Shown: piece by piece, positions 31,305 to 50,616 of the stretch
How the letters are laid out: each line of letters begins with the position of its first letter
Numbering within the stretch: the first letter of the stretch is position 1
From: Actinomycetes bacterium
GTDB taxonomy: Bacteria > Actinomycetota > Actinomycetes > Mycobacteriales > Mycobacteriaceae
Length of the DNA stretch: 64,000 bases
Assembly: GCA_022601135.1 (NCBI GenBank)
Contig: JAHZJB010000064.1
Span: 1-64,000 of the forward strand
Direction: 5' to 3'
Made by a program: the position numbers and the translations under genes
Notes under the pieces: model-generated
The model's input: only the letters and a program-made list of their open reading frames with translations
What the model was told of the DNA's origin: nothing
Databases searched by the model: none

Positions 31305-31826
31305 GTGCCGTGCTCATTCGACGTGACCGCCGAGGCCGTTGCGGGAGTAGCCGAAGTGCAGAAAGCGCTCCGGGACAGGGCCTACTGGCTGGCCAGGCTG
31401 GCCAAGTACGGCGGGGATTCGATGACGTTGGAATCGCTCGAGGTCGGTGACGACGGCACCACCGTCGTGCACACCATCCAGGATCTGCGCGGGCACATGC
31501 TGCCCGGCGGGATCGGCCGGTTGCTGCCGGGCGACACGCAGATCATGCGCACCGAATCGTGGCGGTCTGCGACCGACGGTGGGCAGGTGCATGGCCACTT
31601 CACCATCAGTGCTCGCGGGGTGCCCAGTTCCGGGTCGGGCACCATGGTGCTGAAACCCACCAGAGCCGACCCCGCGCTCGGTTCCAGCCTGCGTATCCGC
31701 GGCACGATCGAGGTCAGGGTTCCGTTGGTGGGCGGCAGGATCGAGCGCTACATCACTGATCTGGTCGCCGAGGAAGTTCCGCAGATGCATCGGTTCACCG
31801 CCGAATGGATCGCCAGAGAGGCCTAG
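31305..31826 (+). CDS. DUF2505-like (SRPBCC-type) protein
   Basis: GTG start with upstream ggggaag; small single-domain protein co-directional with its neighbours; family call from recall. Confidence 0.6.
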   Translation: MPCSFDVTAEAVAGVAEVQKALRDRAYWLARLAKYGGDSMTLESLEVGDDGTTVVHTIQDLRGHMLPGGIGRLLPGDTQIMRTESWRSATDGGQVHGHFTISARGVPSSGSGTMVLKPTRADPALGSSLRIRGTIEVRVPLVGGRIERYITDLVAEEVPQMHRFTAEWIAREA

Positions 31827-31828
31827 TC

Positions 31829-32545
31829 ATGCCCGCAGCGATGCCGACCCCGATTCCGAGCGCGGCCGAGGCGCTCGCCCGCCTCGAGATGCCCCTGATC
31901 GAGGCGATGATGACGCAACGTGCGATCCGCCGGGTTCTGCCGGACCCGGTCGACGACGAGATCGTGCTGAAGTGCATTGAGCTGGCATTGCGCGCACCGA
32001 CCGGTGCCAACGGCCAGAACTGGGAGTTCATCGTCGTCAAGGATCGGCGGATCAAGAAGAAACTGTCCCGCCGCTACCGGCTGGCGTGGCGAGTGTTCTA
32101 CCGCACCTCGATCCGCGATATCGCGTCCTACGACGAGGAGATGGCCAAGAGCGTGCGCGCCATCCAGTGGCAGGTCGATCACTTCGCCGAGATCCCCGTC
32201 CTGGTCGTGGCGTGCCTGCGGCTGACAGCCAGGGAGGGCCGCGTTCCGTATCTGCCGATGCCGCACGCGGCGGCGTCGGCATTCTTCGGTTCGATCTATC
32301 CCAGTGTGCAGAATCTGTTGCTGGCGGCGCGGTCCATGGGCTTGGGAGCGTCGCTGATCACGTTGCCGCTGTGGAATCTGACGTCCGCCAGACGAGTGCT
32401 CGGGCTTCCGACGTCGGTGACGCCGTGCGCAGTGGTGCCGCTGGGCTGGCCGCGGGGCCGGTACGGCCCGACAACACGCAGGCCAGTGGATGAGGTAGTG
32501 CACCTCGACCAGTACGGGAACCGGGCCTGGTTCGGCCCGAAATAA
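31829..32545 (+). CDS. Nitroreductase-family protein
   Basis: MMTQRAIRRVLPDPVDDEIVLKCIELALRAPTGANGQNWEFIVV nitroreductase N-terminus; SVQNLLLAARSMGLGASL. Confidence 0.85.
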   Translation: MPAAMPTPIPSAAEALARLEMPLIEAMMTQRAIRRVLPDPVDDEIVLKCIELALRAPTGANGQNWEFIVVKDRRIKKKLSRRYRLAWRVFYRTSIRDIASYDEEMAKSVRAIQWQVDHFAEIPVLVVACLRLTAREGRVPYLPMPHAAASAFFGSIYPSVQNLLLAARSMGLGASLITLPLWNLTSARRVLGLPTSVTPCAVVPLGWPRGRYGPTTRRPVDEVVHLDQYGNRAWFGPK

Positions 32546-32560
32546 GCCCCCATCAGCCGA

Positions 32561-33349
32561 TCAGCGGCGGCGGGCGGCTGCCCGACGGAGAGCAGGCAAC
32601 AGTAGCGCCCGCGGAGTGAAACGCCCGCCGATGCCGGTCAGCGTGGGTACCAGCCCGGGAACGACGACGCGCTTGCCGCGCAACATGGCCGTGATCCCCG
32701 CCTCGGCGACCACCTCGGCAGACACCTGGGCCGTTCGGCCGGGCACCTGCTCGCCGGCCACCTCCCACCATTCGGTGGGTACCGGCCCCGGGCACAACGC
32801 GGTACACGACACCCCCGTACCGCGCAATCCCTCGTGGACCGCCTCGGACAATGTCTGGACGTAGGCTTTGGTCGCCGAGTACACCGCCGCGCCCGGCAGC
32901 GGCTGGAATCCGGCGGTCGATCCGAGGTTGAGCACTGCGCCTGATCCGCGGGTGATCATCGACGGCAAGGCGGCATGGGTGAGTTCGGTCAGCACGAGGA
33001 CGTTGAGAATCACCTGATCCCGCTCGCGGTCCCACGGCAGCGACTGAAATAGGCCACTGGTGCCGAATCCCGCGCTGTTGACCAGGCCGCCGAGTGGCCT
33101 GTCACGCAGCCTCTCGAGCAGTTCCCCGCGAGCCACGCTGTCGCTGAGATCAAGTGGCAAAACGTCCACGGCGACGCGGTGGGCGCGACGTAACTCGGCG
33201 GCGAGCTCGCGCAGGCGGTCACCGCGTCGCGCGACCAGCGTCAACGGGTAGCCGCGCCCGGCGAGCCCGCGGGCGATCTCAAGACCGATTCCCGAGGAAG
33301 CGCCGGTGATGACGACAGCGGCATCCGCGCTCGGCGCAGCAAGGCTCAT
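32561..33349 (-). CDS. Short-chain dehydrogenase/reductase
   Basis: VVITGASSGIGLEIARGL; VNSAGFG; YSATKAYVQ; internal ATG at 33349 preferred. Confidence 0.85.
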   Translation of the reverse strand: MSLAAPSADAAVVITGASSGIGLEIARGLAGRGYPLTLVARRGDRLRELAAELRRAHRVAVDVLPLDLSDSVARGELLERLRDRPLGGLVNSAGFGTSGLFQSLPWDRERDQVILNVLVLTELTHAALPSMITRGSGAVLNLGSTAGFQPLPGAAVYSATKAYVQTLSEAVHEGLRGTGVSCTALCPGPVPTEWWEVAGEQVPGRTAQVSAEVVAEAGITAMLRGKRVVVPGLVPTLTGIGGRFTPRALLLPALRRAAARRR

Positions 33350-33389
33350 GGGCGCCGATAGTACGAGACGGCCGTATACCCTGATCGCG

Positions 33390-34172
33390 ATGCTCGAGGT
33401 TATCGACAAGGGCGCGCTGAGTGAATCCCATCCCGCCCCATTGTTGTTCGTTCACGGCGCCTGGCATGCCGCGTGGTGTTGGGATGAACACTTCCTGGAT
33501 TTCTTCGCCTCGCGTGGCTACCGCGCCGTTGCGGTCAGCCTGCGCGGCCACGGCGGCAGCCCCTCCGACAAGAGGCTGCGTGATTTGTCGTTCGCCGATT
33601 TCGTCTCCGACATCACCACCGTCGCCGACGAGCTGGCGGTGCCCCCGGTCGCCATCGGGCATTCGATGGGCGGGGTGCTGGTACAGAGGTACTTGGAGTC
33701 CCGGACGGCACCTGCCGGTGTGCTGTTGGCCTCGATGCCGCCGCAGGGTTACCTGCGTTCCGGCCTGCGCTGGATCAGGCGCCACCCGTGGCACTTCGCG
33801 AAACTGTCGGCGACCGGGAAATCGTTGCCCTATGTGAGCACCCCGGAGCTCGCGCGGGAGCGGTTCTTCTGCGCGCACACCCCCGATTCCGTGGTCCAGC
33901 GCTGCGCCACCCGGCTGCAGGAGGAAAGTGCGCGCGCCGGCCTGGACGGCCTGGTCAAACTACCGCGCACCTCGCGGGTGGATGCGCCACTGCTGGTGCT
34001 CGGGGCCCGGGAGGACGGTGCCGTTACTCGCGCCGAAGTGCGAGCGACAGCCCGCGCGTACGGCACCACCGCGGAGTTCTTTCCACAAATGGGACACAAC
34101 ATGATGCTCGAGCCGGGGTGGCAGGCGGTCGCAGAACGCATCGACGCCTGGTTGGGGTTTCGTGGGCTGTGA
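33390..34172 (+). CDS. Alpha/beta hydrolase
   Basis: LLFVHGAWHAAWCWD; nucleophile elbow GHSMGG; MGHNMMLEPGW catalytic His region. Confidence 0.88.
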   Translation: MLEVIDKGALSESHPAPLLFVHGAWHAAWCWDEHFLDFFASRGYRAVAVSLRGHGGSPSDKRLRDLSFADFVSDITTVADELAVPPVAIGHSMGGVLVQRYLESRTAPAGVLLASMPPQGYLRSGLRWIRRHPWHFAKLSATGKSLPYVSTPELARERFFCAHTPDSVVQRCATRLQEESARAGLDGLVKLPRTSRVDAPLLVLGAREDGAVTRAEVRATARAYGTTAEFFPQMGHNMMLEPGWQAVAERIDAWLGFRGL

Positions 34173-34703: not shown

Positions 34704-37010
34704 GTGAATCGAGCGACAAAGGCCGCAATGACGGCGGCGCTGCCCTTCATGGCGCTGCCCCTCACTTTAGCCGGGCCGCTACCTACCGCGGCGGCTGCGG
34801 CGAACGCCTCGGCTGCCTCGGAGCTCATTCCGCCGGGACCGGCGACCGTACTGCACACCAGCCCGACACCCTGGTCGGTACCGCACCACCTCGGCGGCGT
34901 ACTGTGCGCGGACACCTTGGCCTGCCAGGAGGTCTACTACCAGGCGATCCAATCCTACGGCCCCATCGAGCTGGGTCTGGCTGAGAACGTCCGCAGGCTG
35001 GACTTCGCCATCAACAACACGTCCGGCGACAGGGTCGCCTATGGCTTCAGCGGCGGCGCACGAGTGGTTTCGGCCTGGCTGCAGCAGCAGGCCGAGTCCG
35101 GTGCGCCAGCCGAAGACACCAACATCGTGCTGCTCGGCAACAGCGGCCGCAAGTACGGCGGCATCAACGGCTTCTTCTGGGGCAACCTCTTCAACATGCT
35201 GATGACGCCCACCGACACCGGGTACGACGTGCTCGACGTGGCCCGCGAGTACGATCCGATCGCCGACTTCCCGGACAACCCCTTCAACCTGCTCGCCCTG
35301 GCCAATGCATGGGCCGGGTTCAACAGCATTCACTTGAGCTACTCGCAGGTCGATCTCGACGCACCGGGTAACTACGTGTGGAAAGAGGGCAACACCACTT
35401 ACGTCCACATCCCCACCCAGCACCTGCCGATCTTGCAGGGGCTACGCAATGTAGGGCTGGGCGCGCTCGCCGACCAGTGGGAAGCCCCGCTGCGCGAGAT
35501 CATCGATCGGGGTTACGACCGCGACTACCTGGAAAACGCGACCGTCATCCCCGAGACAATCGCCGAGGAAGAGTCCATCGATTCCGTGCAGCCGGCGAGT
35601 TCCACGGCTGCGGCGGTGACCGGCGAGGCCTGCTCTGGCTACAACACCGACGGATGCGACATCCTCGCCCGCCAGAGCTACCAACCTGTGACCGCGCCAG
35701 ACCTGGAGAACCCGGCGTGGCAGAACATCCTGCCGAACTTGTTCAACGCCGTCGCCGGCATCCCGCGGGCCTACCTCGACGGGCTCAACGACCTGTCCCA
35801 CGCACTGGAGGTCACCGGCAGCTGGTGGGTCTACACGCCGACCAATGTGCTCGGCTACGACCCCGCCGACCCGCCGAAGATCACCTCCATCACGAACCTG
35901 ACGATCCCGTTCAAAGCTCTGTCGAACCCGTTGGGCGAGCACCTGTCGTGGTGGGCGAAGGGCAACCTGCCGATGAACGCCGGCTGCACCGGCACCGCGC
36001 CACCGACCTGTCAAGACGCGAACGGAATTCTGAGCGAGATGTTCCAGGCGCCGATCTGGGACTTCATCAACGGCTACCAGTTCCCGGAACTGATCAACCC
36101 TGTCAGCGATGCTGAAGGCGCTGCCGGCGAAGAAATCCCGGGCGAAGAAGGTGCCGCGGTGCCCTGGTCGGAGGAAGCAGTCCAACTCAATCCGATGGAT
36201 CCGGTGTACAGCGTCATCAACTATCTGTTGGCGCCGCCCGAGCAGAACATCCCGGAGCCCATCACTTTCGACGAGGTCGTCCAGGCGCTTGCCCGGTTCG
36301 GTGCTGCCGCGTGGCTGAACTTCAACCCCTTCGTCCCGGGGAGCTTCCTGTGGAAGGGCGCCCCGTATACGTTGGTCACCCCACTGCTCAAGCCGTTCGT
36401 GGGTATCCTGTGCCCGCAGTGCGACCCGGAGCATCCGGAGGATCCGACGCCGTTCGAGGACGACGGTCTTCCACCCAGCAGCCAACCCACGGACCCGACG
36501 GTGACCACTCTCGTGGCGTCGGCCACCGAGGCGGTTGACGGGGGGAACTCCGCGAAAGCCACCCTCGTCGAGGCGACCGCGGCGGAGCCCGCGCCGGCGG
36601 AGCCCGCGCCGGCGGAGCAGGCACCCGCCGAGGAAGCCGCCGCGGACGAGACCGTGCTCGACGAGAACGCTGTCGAGGAGACGGTTGAGCAAGACACGGA
36701 TTCGGCACCTGCGGTGGACCTTGAGACGACCGACGGCCACGACGAGGGCGTTCTCGATGATGAGCTCGGTGCGGACGACACCCTCACCGAGGCGCAGATC
36801 GACGACGACGAGGCCGCCGAAGACCTCGCCGAGCAGGAGATGGTCGCCGAATCCCAGGACGAGTCGGAGGACGCCGACCAGAGTGCGGCGATCGGGAACA
36901 CCGACGCCGACAGCGCCACGGAGGAATCCACCTCACCGGACCCGGCCGGCGAGTCCGAGACCGACAGCGCTACGAGCACCACGGACGCCAGCAGCGGCGG
37001 CGATGACTAG
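34704..37010 (+). CDS. Secreted PE-PPE-domain serine hydrolase with acidic low-complexity C-terminal tail
   Basis: RBS-like AGGAAAGGGA before GTG 34704; signal peptide-like start; VAYGFSGGARVVSAWL; IVLLGNSGRKYGG; GNYVWKEGNTTYVHIPTQHLPIL; Glu/Asp/Ala/Pro tail. Confidence 0.85.
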   Translation: MNRATKAAMTAALPFMALPLTLAGPLPTAAAAANASAASELIPPGPATVLHTSPTPWSVPHHLGGVLCADTLACQEVYYQAIQSYGPIELGLAENVRRLDFAINNTSGDRVAYGFSGGARVVSAWLQQQAESGAPAEDTNIVLLGNSGRKYGGINGFFWGNLFNMLMTPTDTGYDVLDVAREYDPIADFPDNPFNLLALANAWAGFNSIHLSYSQVDLDAPGNYVWKEGNTTYVHIPTQHLPILQGLRNVGLGALADQWEAPLREIIDRGYDRDYLENATVIPETIAEEESIDSVQPASSTAAAVTGEACSGYNTDGCDILARQSYQPVTAPDLENPAWQNILPNLFNAVAGIPRAYLDGLNDLSHALEVTGSWWVYTPTNVLGYDPADPPKITSITNLTIPFKALSNPLGEHLSWWAKGNLPMNAGCTGTAPPTCQDANGILSEMFQAPIWDFINGYQFPELINPVSDAEGAAGEEIPGEEGAAVPWSEEAVQLNPMDPVYSVINYLLAPPEQNIPEPITFDEVVQALARFGAAAWLNFNPFVPGSFLWKGAPYTLVTPLLKPFVGILCPQCDPEHPEDPTPFEDDGLPPSSQPTDPTVTTLVASATEAVDGGNSAKATLVEATAAEPAPAEPAPAEQAPAEEAAADETVLDENAVEETVEQDTDSAPAVDLETTDGHDEGVLDDELGADDTLTEAQIDDDEAAEDLAEQEMVAESQDESEDADQSAAIGNTDADSATEESTSPDPAGESETDSATSTTDASSGGDD
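36582..36626. repeat. In-frame ~15-bp tandem repeat (gcggagcccgcgccg) encoding AEPAP units
   Basis: Two exact units plus a diverged third, read directly. Confidence 0.85.
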
Positions 37011-37031
37011 GAATCGCCGTAGTATCGCCCC

Positions 37032-38516
37032 GTGAACATGGAGCAGTTAGACGCCGTCATCGTCGGCGCCGGGTTCGGCGGAATGGGTTCCGCCATTCAG
37101 TTCAACCGCCTCGGCTATCAGAAGATCGCGATCGTCGACCGCGAGGACGACCTCGGGGGCACCTGGCACGTCAACCGCTATCCCGGGTTGACCGTCGACG
37201 TACCGTCTACTACCTACTCCTACTGGTTCGAGCCCAACCCGTACTGGTCGCGCCTCTATGCGCCGGGGAACGAGCTCAAGACCTACGCCGAGCACGTCGC
37301 CGACAAGTACGACCTACGCCGTTTCATGCGGTTCAATACAACGGTCGAAGGTGCGCGTTGGGATGAGGACGCACAACTCTGGCTGGTGTCGCTGGCTGGT
37401 GGGGAGACCCTTCGCTCGCAGTTCCTGATCCTTGCCACCGGTTATCTGTGCCAGCCGAAGAAGCCCGAGATTCCGGGCATCGACGACTTCGCGGGCAACG
37501 TGCTACACGCCCAGGAATGGGACGACAACTACTCGCTACAGGGAAAGCGGGCGGCGATCATCGGCACCGGCTCCACCGGCGTGCAGCTGATTCCCAAGCT
37601 GGCCGAGGACGTCTCCGAGCTCACGGTGTACCAGCGCACCCCGATCTGGGTGATGCCCAAGTTCGACCTCCCGTTCGGACCCGCTGCCCAGCGGTTGTTT
37701 GCGAGGTTCCCTGCGACCCAACGACTCTTGCGGATGTCCAGCGACCTTTTCATGGACGTCATGGTGACGCTCGCGATGTGGAAATTCCGCCAGTTCAGGC
37801 CGGTCAACAGCGCGGCGGCACGCATCGGCGCCCTGCACAGATTCCTGGCGATCCGGGACAAGGGGCTGCGCCGCAGGCTCACACCGAACTACGACTTCGG
37901 CTGTAAGCGTCCGACGCTGTCCAACAATTACTACCGCACCTTCAACAAGGCGCACGTGCACCTGGAAACGGCTGGCATCGAGCGGATCGAGTCGGACGCA
38001 ATTGTCGCCAAGGACGGCACCAGGCAGATCATCGACACGCTCGTCCTGGCTACCGGATTCGACGTGTGGGAGTCCAACCTGCCAGCCATCGAGGTGATCG
38101 GCCGGGAGGGGCGGGACCTCGGTAAGTGGTGGCGGGAGAACAAGTTCCAGGCATACGAAGGCATGACAGTCCCGATGTTTCCGAACCTGCTGACCCAGGC
38201 CAGCCCGTATGCATGGGTCGGAATGTCGTGGTTCGACACCGTCGAGTACCAAATGCGCCACATGAACCGCTTGCTCGGCGAACTGCAGCGCCAAGGCGCA
38301 CGCACCTTCGAGATCACCGAGTCGGCCAACGCCCGGTTCCTGGATCGGATGCTGACGCTACTCGACGACTCGGTGTTCCGACTGGGTGACTGCGCCAACT
38401 CGCGTTCGTACTGGTTCAACAGTTCCGGAGAAGCCCCGCTGTTCCGGCCCACGTCGGTGCGTCAGGCGGTCAAGGAGCAGGACAGGTTCCCGCTGGCGGA
38501 CTACGACATAGCCTGA
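37032..38516 (+). CDS. Flavin-containing monooxygenase (Baeyer-Villiger type)
   Basis: GAGFGGMG Rossmann motif; FAGNVLHAQEWDD (FxGxxxHxxxW fingerprint); GTGSTGVQLIP second nucleotide site. Confidence 0.88.
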   Translation: MNMEQLDAVIVGAGFGGMGSAIQFNRLGYQKIAIVDREDDLGGTWHVNRYPGLTVDVPSTTYSYWFEPNPYWSRLYAPGNELKTYAEHVADKYDLRRFMRFNTTVEGARWDEDAQLWLVSLAGGETLRSQFLILATGYLCQPKKPEIPGIDDFAGNVLHAQEWDDNYSLQGKRAAIIGTGSTGVQLIPKLAEDVSELTVYQRTPIWVMPKFDLPFGPAAQRLFARFPATQRLLRMSSDLFMDVMVTLAMWKFRQFRPVNSAAARIGALHRFLAIRDKGLRRRLTPNYDFGCKRPTLSNNYYRTFNKAHVHLETAGIERIESDAIVAKDGTRQIIDTLVLATGFDVWESNLPAIEVIGREGRDLGKWWRENKFQAYEGMTVPMFPNLLTQASPYAWVGMSWFDTVEYQMRHMNRLLGELQRQGARTFEITESANARFLDRMLTLLDDSVFRLGDCANSRSYWFNSSGEAPLFRPTSVRQAVKEQDRFPLADYDIA

Positions 38517-38584
38517 TCGGACAGCGCGACAGCAGTTCCGACGCCGAACAATTCCACCGCGCACAAGCATGAAGGACTGACAAC

Positions 38585-39952
38585 ATGGCCACGGCCACCA
38601 CCGATCCGGTGCGGCTCCCACCGGGCCCTCGGGCACCGAAGCTCATCCAGGGTGTCGCCGTCTTGACCGCGCGCTACGGTGCGATCGCCGCGTTGGGTCG
38701 GCGGTATGGATCCACCTTCACCCTCAACCTCCCGGTGTTCGGCGAAACCGTGGTGATCAGCGATCCTGTCCTGGTCAAGGACCTGTTCAGCACCAGCCGC
38801 GAGCTGATCGGCAGGCCCAAGAACAACCTTGGCGGCAACGTGCTCGGCCCTGGATCGATATTCAACCTCGATGGCGATGCGCTGCTGGCACGCCGCAAAC
38901 TTCTGCTGCCACCGTTCAGCGGCAAGAGCATGCGTAGCTACGCCGATATCACCGAGCAAGAAGTGCTGCGCGAAATGCGAACCTGGCCAGAGGGCGTCGA
39001 GTTCAAGACGCTGGAACCGATGATGCGCATCACGCTGAACACCATCCTGCGCGCTGTGTTCGGCGCGGAGGGCGACGAGCTCGATGAGTTGCGCTCGCTG
39101 ATGCCCGCGGCAGTCGAGTTCGGCTCCAAGATCGCGCTCATGCCCTCGGTGGTACGCCGCGACTTCGGACCGTGGAGCCCGGGCGGGAAGTTCGGCGCCT
39201 ACCGGCGTCGGATGGACGAGCTGCTCAACTCGCTGATGTCCGCTGCCCGTTCGGACCCCAACTTCACCGAACGCGGCGATGTCTTGTCGCTGCTCCTGCA
39301 GGCCCGCTACGACGACGGCGAACCCCTCCCGGACGCGTACATTGTCGACGAACTGTTGACGATGCTGGTGGCCGGTCACGAGACGACCTCAACTCAGCTG
39401 GCCTGGACGATCGAACGAATCCGCCGTCATCCGGAACTCTTGACTCGCCTGACCGAAGAGGTCGACGCGGGAGGTTCGGAACTGCTGCTGGCCACGATTG
39501 CAGAGTCACAGCGCACCCGACCCGTGCTGACGGCCGCGCTGCGCCGAACAAAGACCCGACTCAAGTTGGGGGAGTGGGTCATTCCAGAAGGTGACACGAT
39601 CATGGCCAGCACCCAACTGGCGATGGCTGCGGAGTCGAGCTTCCCGGACGCAGAGACGTTCAATCCCGATCGTTTCGTCGGCAACCCCCCCAACCCATTC
39701 GCCTGGATTCCGTTCGGCGGCGGCATGATGCGCTGTATCGGCGCCTCGTTCGCGACGATGGAGATGGAAGTCACACTGAGGACGATGCTCCGCGAGTTCC
39801 GGCTGGAGCCGACGAGCGAGCCCGATGAGAAGCCACACAGCCGCGGCGTCACCGTTACCCCCGCCCGGGGCGGCAGGGCGGTGGTGCACCGCAGAGATCA
39901 CGGCAGGCCGAGTGATGCCGATTCGGTGTCGGTGGCCGAGAACGGCGGCTAA
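38585..39952 (+). CDS. Cytochrome P450
   Basis: Heme-binding FGGGMMRCIGASFA; I-helix MLVAGHETTSTQL; PDRF motif. Confidence 0.93.
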   Translation: MATATTDPVRLPPGPRAPKLIQGVAVLTARYGAIAALGRRYGSTFTLNLPVFGETVVISDPVLVKDLFSTSRELIGRPKNNLGGNVLGPGSIFNLDGDALLARRKLLLPPFSGKSMRSYADITEQEVLREMRTWPEGVEFKTLEPMMRITLNTILRAVFGAEGDELDELRSLMPAAVEFGSKIALMPSVVRRDFGPWSPGGKFGAYRRRMDELLNSLMSAARSDPNFTERGDVLSLLLQARYDDGEPLPDAYIVDELLTMLVAGHETTSTQLAWTIERIRRHPELLTRLTEEVDAGGSELLLATIAESQRTRPVLTAALRRTKTRLKLGEWVIPEGDTIMASTQLAMAAESSFPDAETFNPDRFVGNPPNPFAWIPFGGGMMRCIGASFATMEMEVTLRTMLREFRLEPTSEPDEKPHSRGVTVTPARGGRAVVHRRDHGRPSDADSVSVAENGG

Positions 39953-40803
39953 AACCGGTACTGCAACACTCTGGCCTTGCGGGCGATGGATGGCACGCGG
40001 CGGGATAGCCGGCTCGCCAACCGTAGCCCGGCAGGAAACAGTTGGGATTCGGGCTGTTGCAGCACGCTGGCCTCCTCGATGAGAGCCAGGCCGCTGTGCC
40101 AGCCCTCCGGGTGCCGGGCATCCTTGAAACCCGGGAATCGCCATTGACTGTGCGGTGAGTTGGTCTTGCGCGAGGTGGCCAGTCTGCCAACCAGCTGATT
40201 CGCTTTGCTGACCGAGCCATAGTCGTTGAACGCGATCACACCCGAGCCGAAATGTCCGGTGATGTCGCGCACGATCGCGACGACCTCCTCCTCACTCAGA
40301 AAGGCGACCAGCCCGTCCGCGAACACCATTGTCGGGCGACCTGGGGGAATCGAGTCGGCCCATCCCGGCTCGAGCAGCGACGCCGCCACTGTCTGGTCGG
40401 CGGTGCCAGCCGGCAACAGAGCCTCGCGCATCGCGATGACCCTGGGCAAGTCGACGCTGTACCAGGCCACAGTTGGCGGGGGATCGACGCGAAGGACGGC
40501 TGAGTTCAGGCCCGCGCCGATGTCGACGATCACGGCTGCGGGGTTTTCGACGAGGAACCGACGGATCCGGTGGTCGAGCATTCTCGCCCGCAACGCCACC
40601 AGCGCTACCACGCTGGGCGTGGCGGCAAGCCGAGAAAAGTCGAAGTCGATCCTGTTGACCGTGTTATCGGCCTGCGGATCACCCAGGATCGGGCGCGCCG
40701 CCCGGCTGTCGAGCGCGCGGCAGTACTCGGTGAGCAGCGCGGTCTGTTCTATGGGTCCAAGGGCGCCGGCGTCCATACCGCCAGCCAAGCACACCAAGCC
40801 CAC
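39949..40803 (-). CDS. LCMT-family SAM-dependent methyltransferase (second copy)
   Basis: LDSRAARPILGD; AVIVDIGAGLNSAVLRV; WYSVDLPRVIAMREALLP; related to the 29675-30514 product; start may be internal. Confidence 0.8.
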   Translation of the reverse strand: MGLVCLAGGMDAGALGPIEQTALLTEYCRALDSRAARPILGDPQADNTVNRIDFDFSRLAATPSVVALVALRARMLDHRIRRFLVENPAAVIVDIGAGLNSAVLRVDPPPTVAWYSVDLPRVIAMREALLPAGTADQTVAASLLEPGWADSIPPGRPTMVFADGLVAFLSEEEVVAIVRDITGHFGSGVIAFNDYGSVSKANQLVGRLATSRKTNSPHSQWRFPGFKDARHPEGWHSGLALIEEASVLQQPESQLFPAGLRLASRLSRRVPSIARKARVLQYRF

Positions 40804-40865
40804 GGCGACACACCGGGGTTGCCGCGATCACGAGTCGCGCCAGCCAAAAGCGTTGCCCAGCTTGG

Positions 40866-42200
40866 CTACTCGCCGTTGTCGGCCGAATCCCCACTGTCCG
40901 AAGACCCCGCACCGCCCGAGTCCGTGTCATTGCCCGCGGACGCAGAATCCGCGCTCGACGAGCTTGCCGGCGAATCGCCGTCTTCCGATACGGCCGCAGC
41001 AGCCGCGCCGTCCTGATCCTCGGCTACCTCAGACTCGAGCGCGTCATCTTCGAAGTCATCAGGTTCCGTGCCGTCGGCTGCTAGGTCACCGGACTCCGCA
41101 CCTTCGCCTTCGGAGCCACCCGACTCGGTGCCATCGCCGTCGGAGCCCGCCTGTGTGCCGCCGGCTTCGAGTTCAGCGTCGACCTCCGCGCCCTCGGCCG
41201 CCGACCCGGACCCGTCCTGAGAAACTGCACCGTCCTGCACCGAGGCCTGGTGAGAAGTCTCGTCGGCAGCCGGCGCGCCGTCAGCCATGGCCAGGGCAGC
41301 CGTTGGCGGCTGTTCCGCCCCCGCCAACGGCTCTTCAGGCTCAGACTCGGGCTCAGCCGGTGGCCACCCGGGCTCGGCCGGCAGATAGCTGCGGTCGTAG
41401 GCCTTCTCGATTTGCGGCCTCAGGAAAGTGTCGAGTGAGTCGGCGAACCCGGCCAGCCCCAGCGAGTACAGGAAGCCGAGCATCGGCAGGCGCTCGGTCG
41501 GCACAAAGACGTAAGTGGTGTTCCCCTCCTTCCACACATAATTGGCCGGATCGTAGATGTCGACATCCTCGTAGTCCACGTGAATCGAGGAGAATCCAGC
41601 GTAGGCGTTGATCATGGCCAGCAGATTAAGGGGATTGTCCGGAGTGTCGGAGGACAGATCATATTGCCGTGACACGTCCAGCACGTTGTACTCGGCATCG
41701 GGCGTCATCTCTCCCAATTTCACCCGCGAACCGCCGTACTTTCGGCCGGGATTCCCGATCAGGATGAAGCTCAACGCACTCGGCGACAGAGCGTCTTCGG
41801 TTCCGGCATATTGGTCAAGCCAGTCTTTGGCTACCCGCGCGCCCTGACTGTAGCCGTAGACGATCTGCTGCTCGGATGCATAAGTGCGCAGTGCCCCGTC
41901 GAGTGCGACCACACCGGCCGGTCGGTTCAAATACGGATAGGGCACGGCCGTACAGACACGGGGCGCCGCGCACACCACGCCCCTCAAGTCGTCGGCGTTG
42001 CCGCCCGCAGTCAATGTGTCCACGGTCAGTACCCGGGCGGCACCGGGCGGTAACGCGTCGAACACAGGGACGTCAGCCGCCGCCGTACCGACAGCCGGTA
42101 AGACAAGAAGCGGCACGGAGACGACGGCCGCGGCGAGGCACTTTGCGCGCTGGCCACCTTTTCGGGCATTGCCTGCCTCGACCTCGTTGCCTATGCTCAT
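40866..42200 (-). CDS. Secreted PE-PPE-domain hydrolase with acidic Ser/Gly/Asp/Glu tail
   Basis: Signal peptide-like start; IVYGYSQGARVAKDWL; FILIGNPGRKYGG; NYVWKEGNTTYVFVPTERLPML; low-complexity acidic C-terminus. Confidence 0.85.
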   Translation of the reverse strand: MSIGNEVEAGNARKGGQRAKCLAAAVVSVPLLVLPAVGTAAADVPVFDALPPGAARVLTVDTLTAGGNADDLRGVVCAAPRVCTAVPYPYLNRPAGVVALDGALRTYASEQQIVYGYSQGARVAKDWLDQYAGTEDALSPSALSFILIGNPGRKYGGSRVKLGEMTPDAEYNVLDVSRQYDLSSDTPDNPLNLLAMINAYAGFSSIHVDYEDVDIYDPANYVWKEGNTTYVFVPTERLPMLGFLYSLGLAGFADSLDTFLRPQIEKAYDRSYLPAEPGWPPAEPESEPEEPLAGAEQPPTAALAMADGAPAADETSHQASVQDGAVSQDGSGSAAEGAEVDAELEAGGTQAGSDGDGTESGGSEGEGAESGDLAADGTEPDDFEDDALESEVAEDQDGAAAAAVSEDGDSPASSSSADSASAGNDTDSGGAGSSDSGDSADNGE

Positions 42201-42275
42201 GTGCCGCCGCTCCCGTCTCGGAAGGTTTGCTGACTGAAAGTCAGATTACTACCGAGTCGGGCAGAAAATCTGCCG

Positions 42276-42941
42276 TTATTGCAGCCGACCCGCCACGAAG
42301 TTCGCCGCTTCTTCGACCATCCCGTTTTCGATGTAGGCGAAGTGCGCCGGCAGGTTGAAGCCGGTCGAGCAAAACGGATCCCCTGCCCCGCAAAGGTCGA
42401 TCGTCCTCGACCCATAGGTGGAGCTCATCTGGGGCAGGGGACCGCCGCCGCGAATGTCGCGGAGCGGATTCCCGAAGACGGCGACCGCCGCGACGTGGTC
42501 AGCTACCTGAGACGGCAGCGGGGTAGGGGTGAAGCGACCCAGCGGCCGCGGGTCCACGGTGATGAGATCGATCACCCCCGCACCCTGGGAATTGCCACCG
42601 AGCACCAGTTTGGTGTCCGGACAATTGTCAGCCATCCACTGCACTCGTGCAGCGGCATCGCTGGCACCCTGCGGCGCGGAGGCATCGAAGTTGAAGCCGG
42701 CCGGATAGTTGACGCCATACGCGCCCACAGATCGGTCACCGACCTTGGCGCGCAAGGAGTCGACGAACGCCTCTCCGAGCCAGCCGAGCCCGGGTGGGGC
42801 ACCGGTCCCACGCGCGAAGATCACCTCGATGTCAGGGCAGGGGTCAGCCGCGGCCAGCGGCATCGCGATAGCAGCCTGCGCCATCGCCGCCGGTAGCGCG
42901 ATCGTGGCACCCAGCAGTCCGAGAACTCGCCTCACCAGCAT
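42276..42941 (-). CDS. Cutinase-family serine esterase, secreted
   Basis: CPDIEVIFARGTGAPPGLG; LVLGGNSQGAGVIDL; signal peptide from ATG at 42941. Confidence 0.88.
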   Translation of the reverse strand: MLVRRVLGLLGATIALPAAMAQAAIAMPLAAADPCPDIEVIFARGTGAPPGLGWLGEAFVDSLRAKVGDRSVGAYGVNYPAGFNFDASAPQGASDAAARVQWMADNCPDTKLVLGGNSQGAGVIDLITVDPRPLGRFTPTPLPSQVADHVAAVAVFGNPLRDIRGGGPLPQMSSTYGSRTIDLCGAGDPFCSTGFNLPAHFAYIENGMVEEAANFVAGRLQ

Positions 42942-43000
42942 GTACCCATGCTGACACATCGCTGCGGGTAGACCGCCGAGACCACACCTGAACTGCAGGT

Positions 43001-44491
43001 TCAGCTGATCCGGTAATCGCTCAGCGGGAACGTATCGTTCTCTCGGTTGGTCTGGTTGGTCGACGCGGGCCGCACCAGCGTCTCCCCGCTGGGGCTGAAG
43101 TAGTAGGACCGCGCGCGGCTGCAATCGCCCGTTCCGAAGACCGTCTTGCCGAGGAGACCCGACATGCGTTCGCGGAACTTGGCATTGGCGTCATCGGTTA
43201 CCTCGAACGTGGTCGCATCGCGACGCTGCACTTCGCTGAACAACCGGTCCATGTGCCGCATCTGATACTCAACGGTGTTGAAGAACGACAGCCCACTGGA
43301 GGCGTAAGGTCCGGCCAGGCTGAGGAAGTTCGGAAACGCCGGAATCGACACACCTTGATAGGCTTGAAAACCGTTGTCGCGCCACCACTTTCCAAGGTTG
43401 CAGGCATCGCGGCCGATGATCTCGATCGCGGGGATATTCGCCTCCCAGAGGTCAAAACCTGTAGCCAGAACCAGCGTGTCGATTTCCGACTTCGTCCCGT
43501 CACACGCGACGATTCCGTCCGCCTCGATCCGCGCGATGCCCGCAGATTGCAGATGCACGTTCGGCCTGCTGAACATCCGGTAATACGAATTCGAGTACGT
43601 CGGCCGCTTACAACCGAAGTCATAGTCGGGCGTCAGCTTGGCGCGTAGTTCTTTGTCGCGGATCGACACAAAGCGCAGAGCCTGCGACAGATAGGACGCG
43701 CCCACATTGAGGTGTCTGAAGTACTTGAAGTTCAGCACCGACAGAATCATCATCGCTTCGAGGTTGATGTCGGTGGTGAAGCGGAACGCACGCTGCACCA
43801 GGGGCATCCGGGCAAACAGTCGACGCAGCCATACCGGAATCGCGAAATCGAGCTTGGGTACGACGTGAATGGGCGTGCGCTGGTAGACGATGAGGTCCGC
43901 GGCCGTCTTGGCCAGCTGCGGAATCAGCTGCACCGCTGTTGCGCCGGTGCCGATCAGCCCGATCCTCTTGCCCCGGGGTGAGTAGCTGTCATCCCAGTCG
44001 GTGCTGTGGATGACGCGGCCCGAAAAATCGCCGATGCCGGGGATGTCAGGTGTATGGGGCTGCGAGAGGTAGCCGGTGGCGGCGATGAGGAATCTGGCGG
44101 ACACCGTTTCGCCGTCCGAGAGCGCCACTTGCCAGGCCTGCGAGTCTTCATCCCAGCGAGCGCCGTCGACCGGGCTGTTGAACCTCATGTGTCGCCGAAC
44201 GTCGTACTTGTCGGCGACATGGTCGGCGTAGACCTTCAGCTCAGCGCCCGGCGCGTACAGCCGCGACCAGTAGGGGTTGGGTTCAAACCAGTACGAGTAG
44301 GTAGGCGACGGGATGTCCACGGCCAACCCCGGGTAGTGGTTGACGTGCCATGTCCCGCCCAAGTCATCTTCACGGTCCAGGATCAGAATGTTCTGGTAAC
44401 CCAGCCGTTTGAGCTGGATCACAGCCCCCATTCCGCCGAACCCGGCGCCCACGACGATCACGTCGAATTGCGGCTTGCTCATGGCACTCAC
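43001..44491 (-). CDS. Flavin-containing monooxygenase (Baeyer-Villiger type), paralog of 37032-38516
   Basis: GAGFGGMG; FSGRVIHSTDWDD fingerprint; long near-identical stretches with the other copy. Confidence 0.88.
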   Translation of the reverse strand: MSAMSKPQFDVIVVGAGFGGMGAVIQLKRLGYQNILILDREDDLGGTWHVNHYPGLAVDIPSPTYSYWFEPNPYWSRLYAPGAELKVYADHVADKYDVRRHMRFNSPVDGARWDEDSQAWQVALSDGETVSARFLIAATGYLSQPHTPDIPGIGDFSGRVIHSTDWDDSYSPRGKRIGLIGTGATAVQLIPQLAKTAADLIVYQRTPIHVVPKLDFAIPVWLRRLFARMPLVQRAFRFTTDINLEAMMILSVLNFKYFRHLNVGASYLSQALRFVSIRDKELRAKLTPDYDFGCKRPTYSNSYYRMFSRPNVHLQSAGIARIEADGIVACDGTKSEIDTLVLATGFDLWEANIPAIEIIGRDACNLGKWWRDNGFQAYQGVSIPAFPNFLSLAGPYASSGLSFFNTVEYQMRHMDRLFSEVQRRDATTFEVTDDANAKFRERMSGLLGKTVFGTGDCSRARSYYFSPSGETLVRPASTNQTNRENDTFPLSDYRIS

Positions 44492-44569
44492 GCTACCTCA
44501 CAGCAAATCGAACATCGGTGCCCGTCGCGCTACCCGGCCGGCCCTGGCCCCGGCGATGTCCCGACGCCA

Positions 44570-44600
44570 CGAAGCCCCGGAGCGGGGCGCCGGGGCTTCG
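44570..44600. terminator. GC-rich hairpin just downstream of the minus-strand PE-PPE gene
   Basis: Perfect 11-bp inverted repeat CGAAGCCCCGG / CCGGGGCTTCG with 9-nt loop; no U tract. Confidence 0.6.
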
Positions 44601-44631
44601 CGGTGTGCGTCGTTGGGCGATCGACCGTGGA

Positions 44632-46014
44632 CTACTCCGAGTCGGACGAGTCAGCCGACCCGGAATCGCTCGACGGCGCATCGTCGGCAGCCCCCACGTC
44701 GGCTGCGTCGGTGTCATCAGCAGCCTCGGCTTCCGCAGCCTCCGCCTCGGCGGCCTCGGCCTCCGCAGCCTCGGCCTCCGCAGCCTCAGCCTCCGCGGCC
44801 TCCGCCTCCAAAGCTTCCGCTTCCGCGGCCTCAGCCTCAGCCGCCGCAGCCTCCGCCTCCACAGCCTCAGCCTCCACAGCCTCAGCCTCCACGGCCTCGG
44901 CCTCCGCGGCCTCGGTGGCCTCTGCGGTCTCCGTGGTCTCAGCCTCAGCAAACTCGGCGTCGTCCTCGTTCACCGACGCTGTCTCGTTGGCCGTGTCGTT
45001 CGCTGTGTCGTTGCCCGCCTCGGCGTCGTCCTCGTCTGTGCCGTTGCTCTCATCCACTGGTGCAGACTCAACGGGTTCGGCCGCCGGGGCCGCGACCTTC
45101 GTCTCGGCGGCTGGGGAGTCATCGACGTCTTCGGCGACGGCGGGCGCCGCTAGCGCTGCAGCTTGCACCGCGCTGGGCTTGTTGTCGTAGCGGCTATATC
45201 CCCTTTCGACCGCTCTCCTGAGCGATGCTTCCGACGACTTGAGGAAGGGGAACAACTTCACCAGCGGAAGTTCCTCGGCGGGTACCAGGTAGGTGGTGGT
45301 TGTGCCGCCCTTGCTGTTCACATCCACTTCGATGTTCGTGACGGGTACCTCGGAGAGGTCGGCGAACATCACCGGAAGATGTCCGACGATCGCACCGGCG
45401 ATCGAGTTGATAACCGCGGTGAAGTGCCACCAGCGATCCGGGAAATCGTGCGTCCCGTCGAACTCGGCAACAACCACGGAGACGTCGTACTTCACCTCCG
45501 GCGCCGGCTGGTAGGTGTAGTCGTATTGGGAGTTGTACTTCGCCTTGTCGATCACATCTTGGCGGCTCGAGTCGGCCACCACGACGAAAGTGACTTGGTC
45601 TTTACCGGGCGCGTTGGCATCATTGACCAGATCCCGGAGAACCTCGTTGACCACCAGCGAGCCTGCGGACAGGCCGACCACGGTCACCTGCTCACCCGGC
45701 CCGGAGAGCCTGCTGAGCGCCGCGTCCAGCTCGGCGTCGAGATTGTCGACGCCGACAGCGATCGACTCGCCCAGGCTCAGGCCATTCGAAGGCTTGTGCT
45801 CTGCCGGCCAGTTGACACTGACCCACTGCTGCCCCTGCAGCGCGCCGCCGAGCAGCTGCGACATCACCACGTCGTGCAGCGTGGAGGTCTCCAATCCGCC
45901 CACGACGAGCGCGGAGCTGCTGGCCCATGCCCCGTTCGCGGTGCTGACGGTCAAGGCGGTAGAGGCGAGGAGGGCGCCACAGGCAACCCCTGCTTTTCGA
46001 ATCGCTGTGCGCAT
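44632..46014 (-). CDS. Secreted PE-PPE-domain hydrolase with (EAEAA)n C-terminal tail
   Basis: ATG at 46014 starts a signal peptide-like region (MRTAIRKAGVACGALLAS); VTVVGLSAGSLVVNEVL; TTTYLVPAEELPLVKLFPFL; pentapeptide tail. Confidence 0.82.
   Translation of the reverse strand: MRTAIRKAGVACGALLASTALTVSTANGAWASSSALVVGGLETSTLHDVVMSQLLGGALQGQQWVSVNWPAEHKPSNGLSLGESIAVGVDNLDAELDAALSRLSGPGEQVTVVGLSAGSLVVNEVLRDLVNDANAPGKDQVTFVVVADSSRQDVIDKAKYNSQYDYTYQPAPEVKYDVSVVVAEFDGTHDFPDRWWHFTAVINSIAGAIVGHLPVMFADLSEVPVTNIEVDVNSKGGTTTTYLVPAEELPLVKLFPFLKSSEASLRRAVERGYSRYDNKPSAVQAAALAAPAVAEDVDDSPAAETKVAAPAAEPVESAPVDESNGTDEDDAEAGNDTANDTANETASVNEDDAEFAEAETTETAEATEAAEAEAVEAEAVEAEAVEAEAAAAEAEAAEAEALEAEAAEAEAAEAEAAEAEAAEAEAAEAEAADDTDAADVGAADDAPSSDSGSADSSDSE
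44723..44935. repeat. Degenerate ~15-bp repeat coding for EAEA(A/V) pentapeptides on the minus strand
   Basis: Repeated gcctc(c/g)gcctc(c/g)... units; minus translation AEAEAAEAEAAEAEA. Confidence 0.85.
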
Positions 46015-46594
46015 GAGAACTCCAAGATCGACGCAGACAAATTGGCCGTGATCGGCGTGAGATAAATCATATGACGTCGCAGAAGCGAAAGATAGCAAAT
46101 CATCGACTGTTCATTGGCTGGCGATTTTGGCAAAGGCTCAAATACTTGCTGAAAATCAACCCCGAGGGCAAAAACGTGACCTCGCAGACCTCTGCCAGTG
46201 GTGCAGCCAGGCCTATGGCGCCACCGATTGATCACTCAATTGTGTGCTGCTAAAGACTATATTTAAGCGCGTGTAACGACTGTGCTTACGTCGAATCACT
46301 ACTAATGACAAATATGTAATTAAATGCCGAAATAGGCGTTTGCCAGAAGGCACATTCGTTGCTGTAGTACACCACGCAAAAAATAATTTGTGATCTGGGC
46401 CACACAACTCAGCACATATTTTCGCCGAGCAAATCGACCGCCGCACAAACCGATATGCCCCTCGCCTCCGTCTCCCGATGGTGGCCGGCGTGACCGCCCC
46501 AGAACCGATGGGATGCGCGCTGGGCAAAGCGCCGCCAGGCCCGGTCCGGTTAGCTGATCACACGCACGTACCCGGGGACATTACGAATCCGAAG

Positions 46595-46618
46595 CCGGAG
46601 GGCCGGAGGGCCGGAGGG
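46595..46618. repeat. 8-bp tandem repeat (ccggaggg)x3 upstream of the SDR gene
   Basis: Three exact contiguous copies. Confidence 0.95.
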
Positions 46619-46648
46619 GAACAGTCACTCGGAGGCTATTCTGCGCGG

Positions 46649-47506
46649 GTGGCACCCAAAGGCACGTCTGATCTGTCCGGCAAGGTCGCCTTCATCACCG
46701 GGGGAGCGTCCGGTATCGGCGCCGCGTTGACGACGACACTGGTTGACTCCGGCGCGGAGGTCTGGATCGCCGACCGCCAGGTCGCGGCAGCCGAGCGGCT
46801 CGCCGCGCAACTCCAGTACGCCGGCGCCGCCGCGCATGCCGTCGAATTGGATGTCCGCGACCATTCGGCGTTCGAGCGGGCCGTCGCCCACACCGTGGAG
46901 GTATCCGGACGGATCGACTATCTGTTCAACAACGCCGGAATCGGCATCGGCGGCGAGGTGGCCTCCCTCACCGTCGAAGACTGGAACGACATCATCGACG
47001 TGAATCTGCGGGGGGTGATCCACGGCGTCCTGGCCGCGTACCCCGCGATGATCAGGCAGGGCAGCGGCCACATCGTCAACACCGCGTCGATGGCCGGGCT
47101 GGTCAGCACCTCGGCGCAGGCCGGCTACTCGGCAACCAAGCACGCGGTTGTCGCCCTGTCCAAAACCATGCGGGTAGAGGCGGCCGCGCACGGCGTACGG
47201 GTGTCGGTGCTGTGCCCGGGGGTGGTTCGCACCCCGATCCTGGTCGGCGGCGAGTACGGCCGCAACCGCGACGTCAATCGGGAGGATCTGCTCGCGCTGA
47301 GTGAGGCGTTGCGTCCGATGGAACCCGCTCCCTTCGCCAAGCTGGCGCTGCGGCAGGTAATGCGGAACAAGGCGATCATCGTGGTCCCCAGGCGCTGGAA
47401 AGCACTGTGGTATCTGGAACGTATTTCGCCCGCCCTGTCGATGCGTCTGGCCGGTGAGTCACTGCGACGTACCCGCCAGGTGCAGTCAGGAGTACCGCCG
47501 CGCTAA
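46649..47506 (+). CDS. Short-chain dehydrogenase/reductase
   Basis: VAFITGGASGIGAALTTTL; NNAGIGIGG; YSATKHAVVALSKTMR; GTG start at 46649 preferred to 46478. Confidence 0.82.
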   Translation: MAPKGTSDLSGKVAFITGGASGIGAALTTTLVDSGAEVWIADRQVAAAERLAAQLQYAGAAAHAVELDVRDHSAFERAVAHTVEVSGRIDYLFNNAGIGIGGEVASLTVEDWNDIIDVNLRGVIHGVLAAYPAMIRQGSGHIVNTASMAGLVSTSAQAGYSATKHAVVALSKTMRVEAAAHGVRVSVLCPGVVRTPILVGGEYGRNRDVNREDLLALSEALRPMEPAPFAKLALRQVMRNKAIIVVPRRWKALWYLERISPALSMRLAGESLRRTRQVQSGVPPR

Positions 47507-48745
47507 ACGCCGAGCCTTGCGGGGGCTCAACGCGGCGAGTCGCATATCGCCCCCGTAATGGCTGAGTACCCGCCGGTCCATCACGCGGCGCCACAATGGC
47601 GGGACCAGCGCCAACATCATCATCGTGGCGTAGCCGGCGGGCAACTGCGGAGCCTCGTCGGCGTGGCGCAGCGCTTGGTACCGCCGCTGCGGGTTCGCGT
47701 GGTGGTCCGCGTGGCGCTGCAGATGGAACAGGAACACGTTGGAGATCACCGAGTTGCTGTTCCAACTATGCGCCGGAAGCACCTGCTCATAGCCTCCATC
47801 AGACCGCCGTTGGCGACGTAGCCCGTAATGCTCGAGGTAGTTGATGGTCTCCAGCATGAAGATCCCGATGACCGCTTGGCCGAGCAGCCAGGGCAGCACC
47901 TCCACACCAAAGCCCGCCACCAGGGCCGCGAACAGCACGATGGTGATGAGCCATCCGTTGAGCACGTCGTTGCGCAGCGTCCACACGGGCTTGTCGAGGC
48001 GCGCCAGCCGGCGGCGTTCGATCCGCCACGCCGACCGCAAGCTGCCGAAGATGGACCGGTAGTGAAAGAAATAGAGGTTCTCGCCCAACCGGGAACTGGC
48101 CGGGTCCTCCGGGGTGGCGACGCGGACGTGATGTCCGCGATTGTGTTCGACGAAGAATTGCCCGTAGCCGGTCTGTGCGAGCGCCACCTTGCTGAGCCAG
48201 CGCTCCGACTGCGCCCGCTGGTGACCCATCTCGTGGGCGGCGTTGATCGCGACGCCGCCCACGCCGCCGACGGTCAGCATCAGGCCCAACTTGTCGATGT
48301 CACTCAGCGTGACCCCACCGCCACCACTCCACAACCAGCAGGCAAGCACCAACGCCAGGTACTGCGCGGGCAGGTAGAGATAGGTCGCCCACCGGTAGTA
48401 GCGGTCCTGCTCCAGCCAGGCCAGCGCGCTGTCGGGCGGGTTCTCTGAGTCCAGGCCGACCACATAATCCAGCACCGGGATGACGACGAGCATCAGCAGG
48501 GGCCCGGACCACCACAGGATGCCCCAGCCGGTCAGCGCGACGGCAGCCCACGACACCGGGACAAGGGTGGGCACGACCAGACCTGCCAGCCACAGGTAGC
48601 GCTTGCGATCTCGCCAACCGCGAACGGACGGGTGATGCTGGGCCGCACCTGTCGTTGCCGGAGGCTGCTCGCGCACGGTAGCTGCTTGCACCCCCTCGGA
48701 AGCGAACGGCGCTCCCAGTTTGCAGTTCGATAAGTCACAGTTCAA
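47486..48745 (-). CDS. alkB: AlkB-type alkane 1-monooxygenase
   Basis: His boxes HEMGH, EHNRGHH, NYLEHYG, LQRHADHH plus hydrophobic segments. Confidence 0.9.
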   Translation of the reverse strand: MNCDLSNCKLGAPFASEGVQAATVREQPPATTGAAQHHPSVRGWRDRKRYLWLAGLVVPTLVPVSWAAVALTGWGILWWSGPLLMLVVIPVLDYVVGLDSENPPDSALAWLEQDRYYRWATYLYLPAQYLALVLACWLWSGGGGVTLSDIDKLGLMLTVGGVGGVAINAAHEMGHQRAQSERWLSKVALAQTGYGQFFVEHNRGHHVRVATPEDPASSRLGENLYFFHYRSIFGSLRSAWRIERRRLARLDKPVWTLRNDVLNGWLITIVLFAALVAGFGVEVLPWLLGQAVIGIFMLETINYLEHYGLRRQRRSDGGYEQVLPAHSWNSNSVISNVFLFHLQRHADHHANPQRRYQALRHADEAPQLPAGYATMMMLALVPPLWRRVMDRRVLSHYGGDMRLAALSPRKARRLARRYS

Positions 48746-48798: not shown

Positions 48799-50616
48799 TC
48801 AGGACAGCAGCGTCGCGATCGCCGAGGTCAATTCCGGCGATGCCGAGCTCGCCAGGTTTCGATAGCTACCGCCGGTGATCTGCGCTACCGACTCCCAGGT
48901 AGCCCGATCGGAATCTTCGCCGAAGTCGATGACATTGACCGCCACCGGACGGGCCGGGTCGAATGCACCCCGAATGTACTCCTGGAGACCGTCGGCGCCC
49001 AGCGACCGATCAGTGTGCGGTCCCGCGGTGATGACCAAGACAGAGTTTTTCTGGCCTTCGCGGTAGTTGGCCGACGCGTCGGTGTAGACGAGGCGCAGCG
49101 TGGTGAAAGACACCGCGCCGCCGCCCGACGCGATCTGGCCGTCCAGCGCAGCAGCCAGGGCATCGGACCGTGGCCGGCCCTCGAGTGGTTCGGGCAGCGG
49201 GCCCACCGCGATCACCGAACGCCCCGCTACCCCGTCGAACGTCCACAGTCCGACGGCAGCATCGGGCGGGAGCACCCGCAGTCGCGCCGTCAGCGCTTCC
49301 ACCACATTGGTCAGGCGTGTCTTGCCGCCCTCGTCGGTCGGCATCGACTGATCGAGCATGATCGTGACAGCCGGGCCGGCGACCGGTGTGGTCAACGCGT
49401 CGGCGATCGTCACCCGCAGCGCGTCTTCGCCGAGGTCCAACGGTGCGGCCACCGGCCCGAAGTCGACGACGTCGCTGGCCGGAGGTGTGTCGTCACCGAC
49501 CCGGAACCCGGCGTTGAGGAGTTCGCCAAGCTGCTCGGGTTTGCGCATGAATCGGGAAAGCTCGCTCGCGGCGGTGATCTGTTCCCCCGTCAGCCAATCG
49601 CCGTCGAGTAGCACGGTGGGGAAGTCGGCCGTCGCGGGCGGCCCCGGCGGCAACCAGGCCGCGAGCTTGGACCCTGCATCCGGCAGCGACGACGCCCGCT
49701 GGAAGAGTCGCTGCTCCGTCGTCACCACGGCGTGAACCGGGGCGGTGGCCGGATCTCCGGCATCCACCAGGGCCTGCAAGGCGGTGTCGGCGTTGGTGTC
49801 GGCGAGCTCCGGAGCTCCGCCCACCAGAGCGCTGACAGCCCCCAGTCCAGCGCTGGCCGGCAGGCCGGGCGGTGCGGCCGCGGCTGCCACCGCCTCGGCC
49901 GCCAGCAGCGAGGCGTCGCTGTCCTGGGCCAGGGGTACCGCCAGGCGAAGACCGCCCCAGCCTGGTAGCCCCAGCCCGTCAAGGGAAACCGGATCGGCCT
50001 GCAGCCGCGGGAGCGTGCCCCAGTTTTGGTCATCCAGCGCGTCGGTCAGCTGGGGAGACACCGCGAGCAGCACCGGGGAAGTCACCAGTGAGCGGCTGTC
50101 GCTGACGGTTTCGGTCCCGACTGCGGCTTCCAGTCGGGCTACCGATACCGAGCTACCCGGGATCCACAGCGCCGGTCGGGCACCGAGGTCGGCGGGCCAC
50201 GGACCAAGGAATCCGTTGACCACCCGACCCGAATCACCAGCCTCGACCTGGACGACGACGCATCGGTCACCCACTGGGGCGGCCGTCTCGTTGTAGCGCT
50301 GCGCCAGCGCCGACACGGGTTCGGCGATCGCTGGATCCGCGATGACGGCAACATTGACTTCGCCGTCCACGCATCGCTTGGTCGCGACATCGGATCGGTC
50401 CGACAGCGCGGCTCCGAAGAAGCGCCACAGAATCACCACGCCGACAACAACGACGACGCTGACCAGGGCGACGATCACGCCGAGGCTGATGCCGCGCCGT
50501 CCCGCCGTCACCGCGCGGTGGCTGCCGGTCCATTCGCCGCTGTCCCCGCCGTGCCCGAACTGCTTGGTGCGCGGCTCGTCGGCTGGATCCGGGCCCGAGC
50601 GGCTATGGCGTCCCAT
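48799..50616 (-). CDS. Membrane-anchored VWA/substrate-binding-like protein (Rv1836c-like)
   Basis: N-terminal TM after a basic segment; VWA-like VTIMLDQSMP and VGLWTFDG; adjacent to glcB as in Mtb. Confidence 0.75.
   Translation of the reverse strand: MGRHSRSGPDPADEPRTKQFGHGGDSGEWTGSHRAVTAGRRGISLGVIVALVSVVVVVGVVILWRFFGAALSDRSDVATKRCVDGEVNVAVIADPAIAEPVSALAQRYNETAAPVGDRCVVVQVEAGDSGRVVNGFLGPWPADLGARPALWIPGSSVSVARLEAAVGTETVSDSRSLVTSPVLLAVSPQLTDALDDQNWGTLPRLQADPVSLDGLGLPGWGGLRLAVPLAQDSDASLLAAEAVAAAAAPPGLPASAGLGAVSALVGGAPELADTNADTALQALVDAGDPATAPVHAVVTTEQRLFQRASSLPDAGSKLAAWLPPGPPATADFPTVLLDGDWLTGEQITAASELSRFMRKPEQLGELLNAGFRVGDDTPPASDVVDFGPVAAPLDLGEDALRVTIADALTTPVAGPAVTIMLDQSMPTDEGGKTRLTNVVEALTARLRVLPPDAAVGLWTFDGVAGRSVIAVGPLPEPLEGRPRSDALAAALDGQIASGGGAVSFTTLRLVYTDASANYREGQKNSVLVITAGPHTDRSLGADGLQEYIRGAFDPARPVAVNVIDFGEDSDRATWESVAQITGGSYRNLASSASPELTSAIATLLS

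Follow-up and report, generated by a model that had tools for sequence, protein, structure and literature searches.

Putative Baeyer-Villiger monooxygenases and PE-PPE hydrolases at the end of a PDIM-family lipid locus in mycobacteria

The 64,000-nucleotide stretch of mycobacterial DNA analyzed here (the window) carries eight genes at positions 34704 to 46014 which, judged from domain content and homology, form the terminal part of a lipid locus of the PDIM family (phthiocerol-dimycocerosate-like) that occupies the left part of the window. PDIM, a tuberculosis virulence wax, is regarded as belonging to slow-growing pathogens, and we know of no lipid product of this locus from the species that carry it. 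On balance we favor the reading that the block provides tailoring and export functions at the end of the locus, with a Baeyer-Villiger monooxygenase (BVMO) that tailors a PDIM-like ketone wax. A more specific version, which we put forward tentatively and consider somewhat more apt to be wrong than right, is that a dedicated BVMO turns the phthiodiolone-type ketone of an environmental mycobacterial wax into an in-chain ester, followed by remodeling by exported PE-PPE hydrolases and a cutinase, an undescribed branch of PDIM tailoring. If true, relatives of the locus would offer a system for PDIM-type chemistry in harmless hosts, the phthiodiolone ketone would have an alternative fate, and PE-PPE hydrolases would gain a testable role in lipid remodeling.

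The order, strands and coordinates of the eight genes are as the first-pass annotation gave them. The plus strand encodes a PE-PPE-domain serine hydrolase with an acidic tail (PP1, 34704-37010), a type I BVMO (BV1, 37032-38516) and a cytochrome P450 with the heme-Cys motif (38585-39952). Read from its 5’ end, the minus strand encodes a further PE-PPE-domain serine hydrolase (PP3, 44632-46014), a second type I BVMO (BV2, 43001-44491), a cutinase-like serine esterase (42276-42959), the remaining PE-PPE hydrolase (PP2, 40866-42200) and an LCM-type methyltransferase identified by Pfam (MTb, 39949-40803). Pfam E-values are 7e-32, 2e-28 and 6e-36 for the PE-PPE domains, 7e-49 for the cutinase and 7e-54 for the P450. 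The plus-strand genes are separated by 21 and 68 bp and those of the minus strand by 140, 41, 75 and 62 bp, and the two sets of genes meet in a convergent overlap of 4 bp. This spacing suggests two convergent operons, PE-PPE/BVMO/P450 on the plus strand and PE-PPE/BVMO/cutinase/PE-PPE/methyltransferase on the minus strand, each pairing a BVMO with one or more PE-PPE genes.

Both BVMOs have the type I fingerprint FxGxxxHxxxW (FAGNVLHAQEWD in BV1 and FSGRVIHSTDWD in BV2), and the GxGxxG pattern matches at two sites in BV1 and at one in BV2. Among PDB entries, BV1 matches solved BVMOs best, all of them distantly (best E=3e-70, in a split alignment), and we regard both proteins as putative ketone-oxidizing type I BVMOs. 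In a tree of 113 BVMOs they fall in separate clades, and almost all block-bearing species have an ortholog in each; a more careful tree of 52 BVMOs gives these clades support of 100/100 and 98/97 with an unresolved backbone, and a topology test did not reject an ancient sister relation of BV1 and BV2, that is, an old duplication (p-AU 0.37). The region had been described as a duplicated block with a mirrored layout. A segmental duplication is not supported, since BV1 and BV2 are only 61% identical and belong to clades that predate the species; with the PE-PPEs just 25-41% identical to one another, we reject a segmental mirror duplication as a recent event. The host genomes have many BVMO-like genes each. 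Relatives of the BV2 type are widespread in genomes without PapA5, so the BVMO family has further roles too, and the named genomes whose BVMOs are only of the non-block BV2 type often lack papA5.

The same genome assembly contains the whole locus, from the PKS to the PE-PPE genes, a second time in divergent form, on a 40-kb contig whose end lies shortly beyond it (C132:1-39650). Amino acid identity between the copies is 66-92% over the eight block genes and 58-92% over the locus. Because sister genomes have one BV1 each, and because the C132 BV2 branches outside the group formed by the window, HKST-UBA38 and O_S4.2, co-binning (contamination) or transfer may be at least as likely as an old duplication. 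Malate synthase G is single copy in the source genome, and the flanks on C132 do not extend far enough to distinguish a paralog from a contaminant.

To the left of the block, the window opens within a PKS (AT-DH-KR-ACP, 5-3451) cut off by the contig start, at a place where M. parafortuitum has a full-length PKS of 1844 aa. There follow, also on the plus strand, a FadD23/FadD28-like fatty-acyl-AMP ligase (FAAL, 3536-5281), a PpsA-like PKS (ACP-KS-AT-KR-ACP, 5278-10128), a PKS module with KS-AT-KR-(DH-like)-ACP (10135-15645; this and the two preceding PKS assignments are from Pfam), a PKS module with KS-AT-DH-KR-ACP (15646-21102), a PpsE-like PKS with KS-AT-ACP-condensation domains and no reducing domain (21099-25607), three genes for a DrrA-, DrrB-, DrrC-like ABC exporter (25668-28356), and an acyltransferase with a PapA_C domain (28411-29670) that matches the M. 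tuberculosis PapA5 structure 1q9j over its full length (E=1e-129). Thus the FAAL, Pps-type PKSs, PpsE-type terminal module, DrrABC and PapA5 that are hallmarks of a PDIM locus are present in the window. Between PapA5 and the block lie an LCM-type methyltransferase (MTa, 29675-30514, minus strand), a nitroreductase-fold oxidoreductase (31805-32545, plus strand), a mycolate-reductase-like SDR that scores below the family cut-off (32561-33409, minus strand), and an alpha/beta hydrolase conserved upstream of PP1 and BV1 (33306-34172, plus strand). The five-protein PpsA-E set in the same domain order is absent from the window: four Pps-like proteins follow the FAAL, and one has its KR before the DH-like region. 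That region (in the PKS at 10135-15645) has the motif HxxxGxxxxP, and the protein has an ortholog of similar length in M. parafortuitum. The complete M. parafortuitum locus is bounded by gcvP and a thioesterase gene and by malate synthase G; no mas/mmpL7-like gene was recognized in the stretch read upstream of it, and the contig of the window starts at base 1. M. vanbaalenii PYR-1 has been reported to lack ppsC-E, mas and mmpL7 (PMC3089613).

The linkage of BVMO and lipid locus is conserved in relatives, so that the synteny check which the first-pass annotation had called for, and on which its reading could have failed, came out in its favor. We sampled 119 genomes of the genus, with identity cut-offs for PapA5 and BVMO that were set after the data were seen. 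A BV1-type BVMO lies 6-18 kb from PapA5 on the same contig in 20 of the 22 PapA5 loci at or above 62% identity, the other two being split contigs, and BVMOs of at least 67% identity are in PapA5-bearing genomes in 21 of 22 cases. The eight-gene order is identical in about 20 Mycolicibacterium loci, and relatives of the locus are found in M. vaccae, M. parafortuitum, M. iranicum, M. austroafricanum, Mycolicibacter and others. A PE-PPE gene is within 10 kb of 33 of the 43 locus-linked BVMOs versus none of the 31 unlinked ones; the species are related, so all of these linkage counts are non-independent. Divergent (canonical-type) PapA5 loci mostly lack a BVMO (20 of 25), and in five of the 25 a second, well-supported BVMO clade is found 2.1-2.4 kb start-to-start from papA5, with three of these five loci, or close relatives, placed in the tree. 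Candidatus M. methanotrophicum has two PapA5 genes 18 kb apart (G084:C1:2944695 and 2963104), FAAL, PKS, drr and LLM genes both between the two and in their surroundings, and a BVMO elsewhere in the genome.

The sister loci also point to the substrate. Between the nitroreductase and hydrolase genes is a slot that holds either an LLM protein (16 loci) or an SDR (10 loci, at least 70% identity), never both. The slot LLM is 71-74% identical to an LLM located about 0.2 kb from an Rv2952-type methyltransferase in three canonical PDIM-bearing genomes, which is the Rv2951c/Rv2952 arrangement of M. tuberculosis; this orthology is based on identity and neighborhood rather than a tree, and the slot LLM had no match to a ketoreductase-specific family model. 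Four class-A genomes (G142, G111, G022 and MYC340) have two NF045823-type (Rv2952-type) methyltransferase genes between papA5 and BV1. The window itself has no Rv2951c-type phthiodiolone ketoreductase, the SDR standing in the slot where sister species have the ortholog, and the source genome has no above-cut-off match to the phthiotriol methyltransferase model NF045823. Rv2951c and Rv2952 act on phthiodiolone dimycocerosates, by ketone reduction and methylation (PMC12802322; PMC8498797). Given orthologs of both types in sister loci, a phthiodiolone-like ketone would most likely be the substrate made by this locus class, with the BVMO as an added enzyme that could act on it. These orthologs and the conserved linkage support the suggestion in the first-pass annotation of keto-lipid remodeling tied to the adjacent phthiodiolone-type locus. 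The AT of the PpsE-like PKS has the motif HAFH, which we take to be malonyl-type and which would make a methyl ketone a possible release product. A point against the proposal is that a ketoreductase or SDR co-occurs with the BVMO, so that the ketone may be reduced before the BVMO acts.

All four esterases (PP1-PP3 and the cutinase) have GxSxG and candidate Asp and His residues, and the PE-PPEs match PF08237 at 100-124 bits against a cut-off of 21. A catalytic triad has been described for the PE-PPE serine hydrolases (PMC3037379). Against NF041570 (PE acyltransferase) the PE-PPEs score 29-123 bits (E=1e-35 for PP3), and the curated cut-off of 580 bits is not reached. The start codons at 34704 and 46014 yield signal-peptide-like N-termini, and the PE-PPEs and the cutinase as a group appear signal-peptide-like there by hydropathy scan and inspection only. 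They are thus probably exported and outside the compartment of the BVMO, and would act on exported lipid, not directly on the cytosolic BVMO product. The three PE-PPEs all end in acidic low-complexity tails with a net charge of -45 to -59, and PP3 contains AEAE(A/V) repeats.

The pathway we envisage would begin with the FAAL and the Pps-like PKSs, whose domain content and homology predict a long-chain polyol chain on which the PpsE-like last module, having no reducing domain, would leave a phthiodiolone-type ketone. PapA5 would then acylate the hydroxyls. Gene context suggests that the slot enzyme could reduce the ketone (an Rv2951c-type enzyme in some species, an SDR in others including the source), or alternatively that cytosolic BV1, together with BV2 where present, could insert an oxygen beside the carbonyl to give an ester, with the P450 and the LCM methyltransferases adding further decoration. 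After export, the PE-PPEs and the cutinase might act on the wax as esterases or, by comparison with Chp2, as trans-acylases.

The BVMO could instead serve to trim the polyketide. Here the ester it forms would be cleaved by the neighboring alpha/beta hydrolase, a cytosolic candidate for acting on the BVMO product, shortening the ketone end to an alcohol and leaving a final wax without the ester. Most class-A loci conserve this hydrolase gene upstream of the PE-PPE and BV1 genes, but it is missing next to the second BVMO clade (G144, M. aquaticum), and we think trimming unlikely. Another alternative, in our judgment decidedly improbable, gives the BVMOs a different lipid substrate: they might, for instance, turn ketomycolates into wax-ester mycolates, and their closeness to the PDIM-like locus would mean only that cell-envelope genes share this region. 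Both keto- and wax-ester mycolates are known from the fast-growing vaccae group, and the slot SDR has a sub-threshold resemblance to the mycolate reductase family. M. avium is a wax-ester mycolate producer. BV1, however, tracks the PapA5 class, and papA5 is missing from M. avium and similar producers (PMC3089613). The open-licence literature yielded no paper making this link, and nothing relevant on BVMOs together with phthiodiolone or wax-ester mycolates, or on PDIM in fast growers.

The right flank bears on the catabolic role that had been proposed for the region, in which the BVMO and esterases degrade ketones from subterminal alkane oxidation and AlkB and the P450 supply oxidized alkanes. 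Next to the block is a conserved SDR (SDR2, 46478-47506, plus strand, true start possibly 46649), followed by an AlkB-family alkane hydroxylase (47486-48745, minus strand) which, as had been noted, is genuine by Pfam and its histidine motifs, and whose membership in the module is uncertain. AlkB is a conserved right neighbor of the block in several species, and beyond it a 605-aa protein with no Pfam or NCBIfam match (48799-50616) is conserved beside malate synthase G. AlkB and malate synthase G flanking the block, and the BVMO/esterase ketone pathways that exist in other bacteria, would fit degradation. Against it, BV1 remains linked to the PKS genes even in lineages where the loci retrieved contain no AlkB, the BVMOs outside the locus have no adjacent PE-PPE and just two have a cutinase beside them, and the PE-PPEs and cutinase look exported, which favors lipid remodeling over cytosolic ketone breakdown. 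We therefore hold the degradation pathway to be very improbable, and return to tailoring of a PDIM-like ketone wax as the preferred reading.

BV1 and BV2 share the fingerprint of the known type I BVMOs (cyclohexanone and phenylacetone monooxygenase) and are only distant relatives of them. As in the BVMO/esterase ketone-degradation pairs of actinobacteria, a BVMO here is near ester-acting enzymes. The operon spacing would fit such a pair; unlike in those pairs, the esterases look exported and the linkage is to lipid biosynthesis rather than ketone catabolism. A PE-PPE serine hydrolase beside a PKS/Pap lipid locus recalls Chp2 (Rv1184c), a periplasmic trans-acylase acting on acyltrehaloses (PMC4183827), and the PE-PPE acyltransferase of the trehalose polyphleate locus. 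The catalytic domain of the PE-PPEs here is likewise predicted to be exported, whereas these proteins are only distantly similar to those enzymes and have long acidic tails. With the M. tuberculosis PDIM/PGL locus (fadD26-ppsA-E-drrABC-papA5-mas-fadD28-mmpL7, Rv2951c, Rv2952) the present locus has in common the FAAL, Pps-like PKSs with the PpsE-like KS-AT-ACP-C protein last, DrrABC and PapA5, and sister loci match it also in Rv2951c- and Rv2952-type orthologs. The locus described here differs in having four rather than five Pps-like proteins after the FAAL, and in its additional BVMOs, P450s, LCM methyltransferases, PE-PPEs and cutinase.
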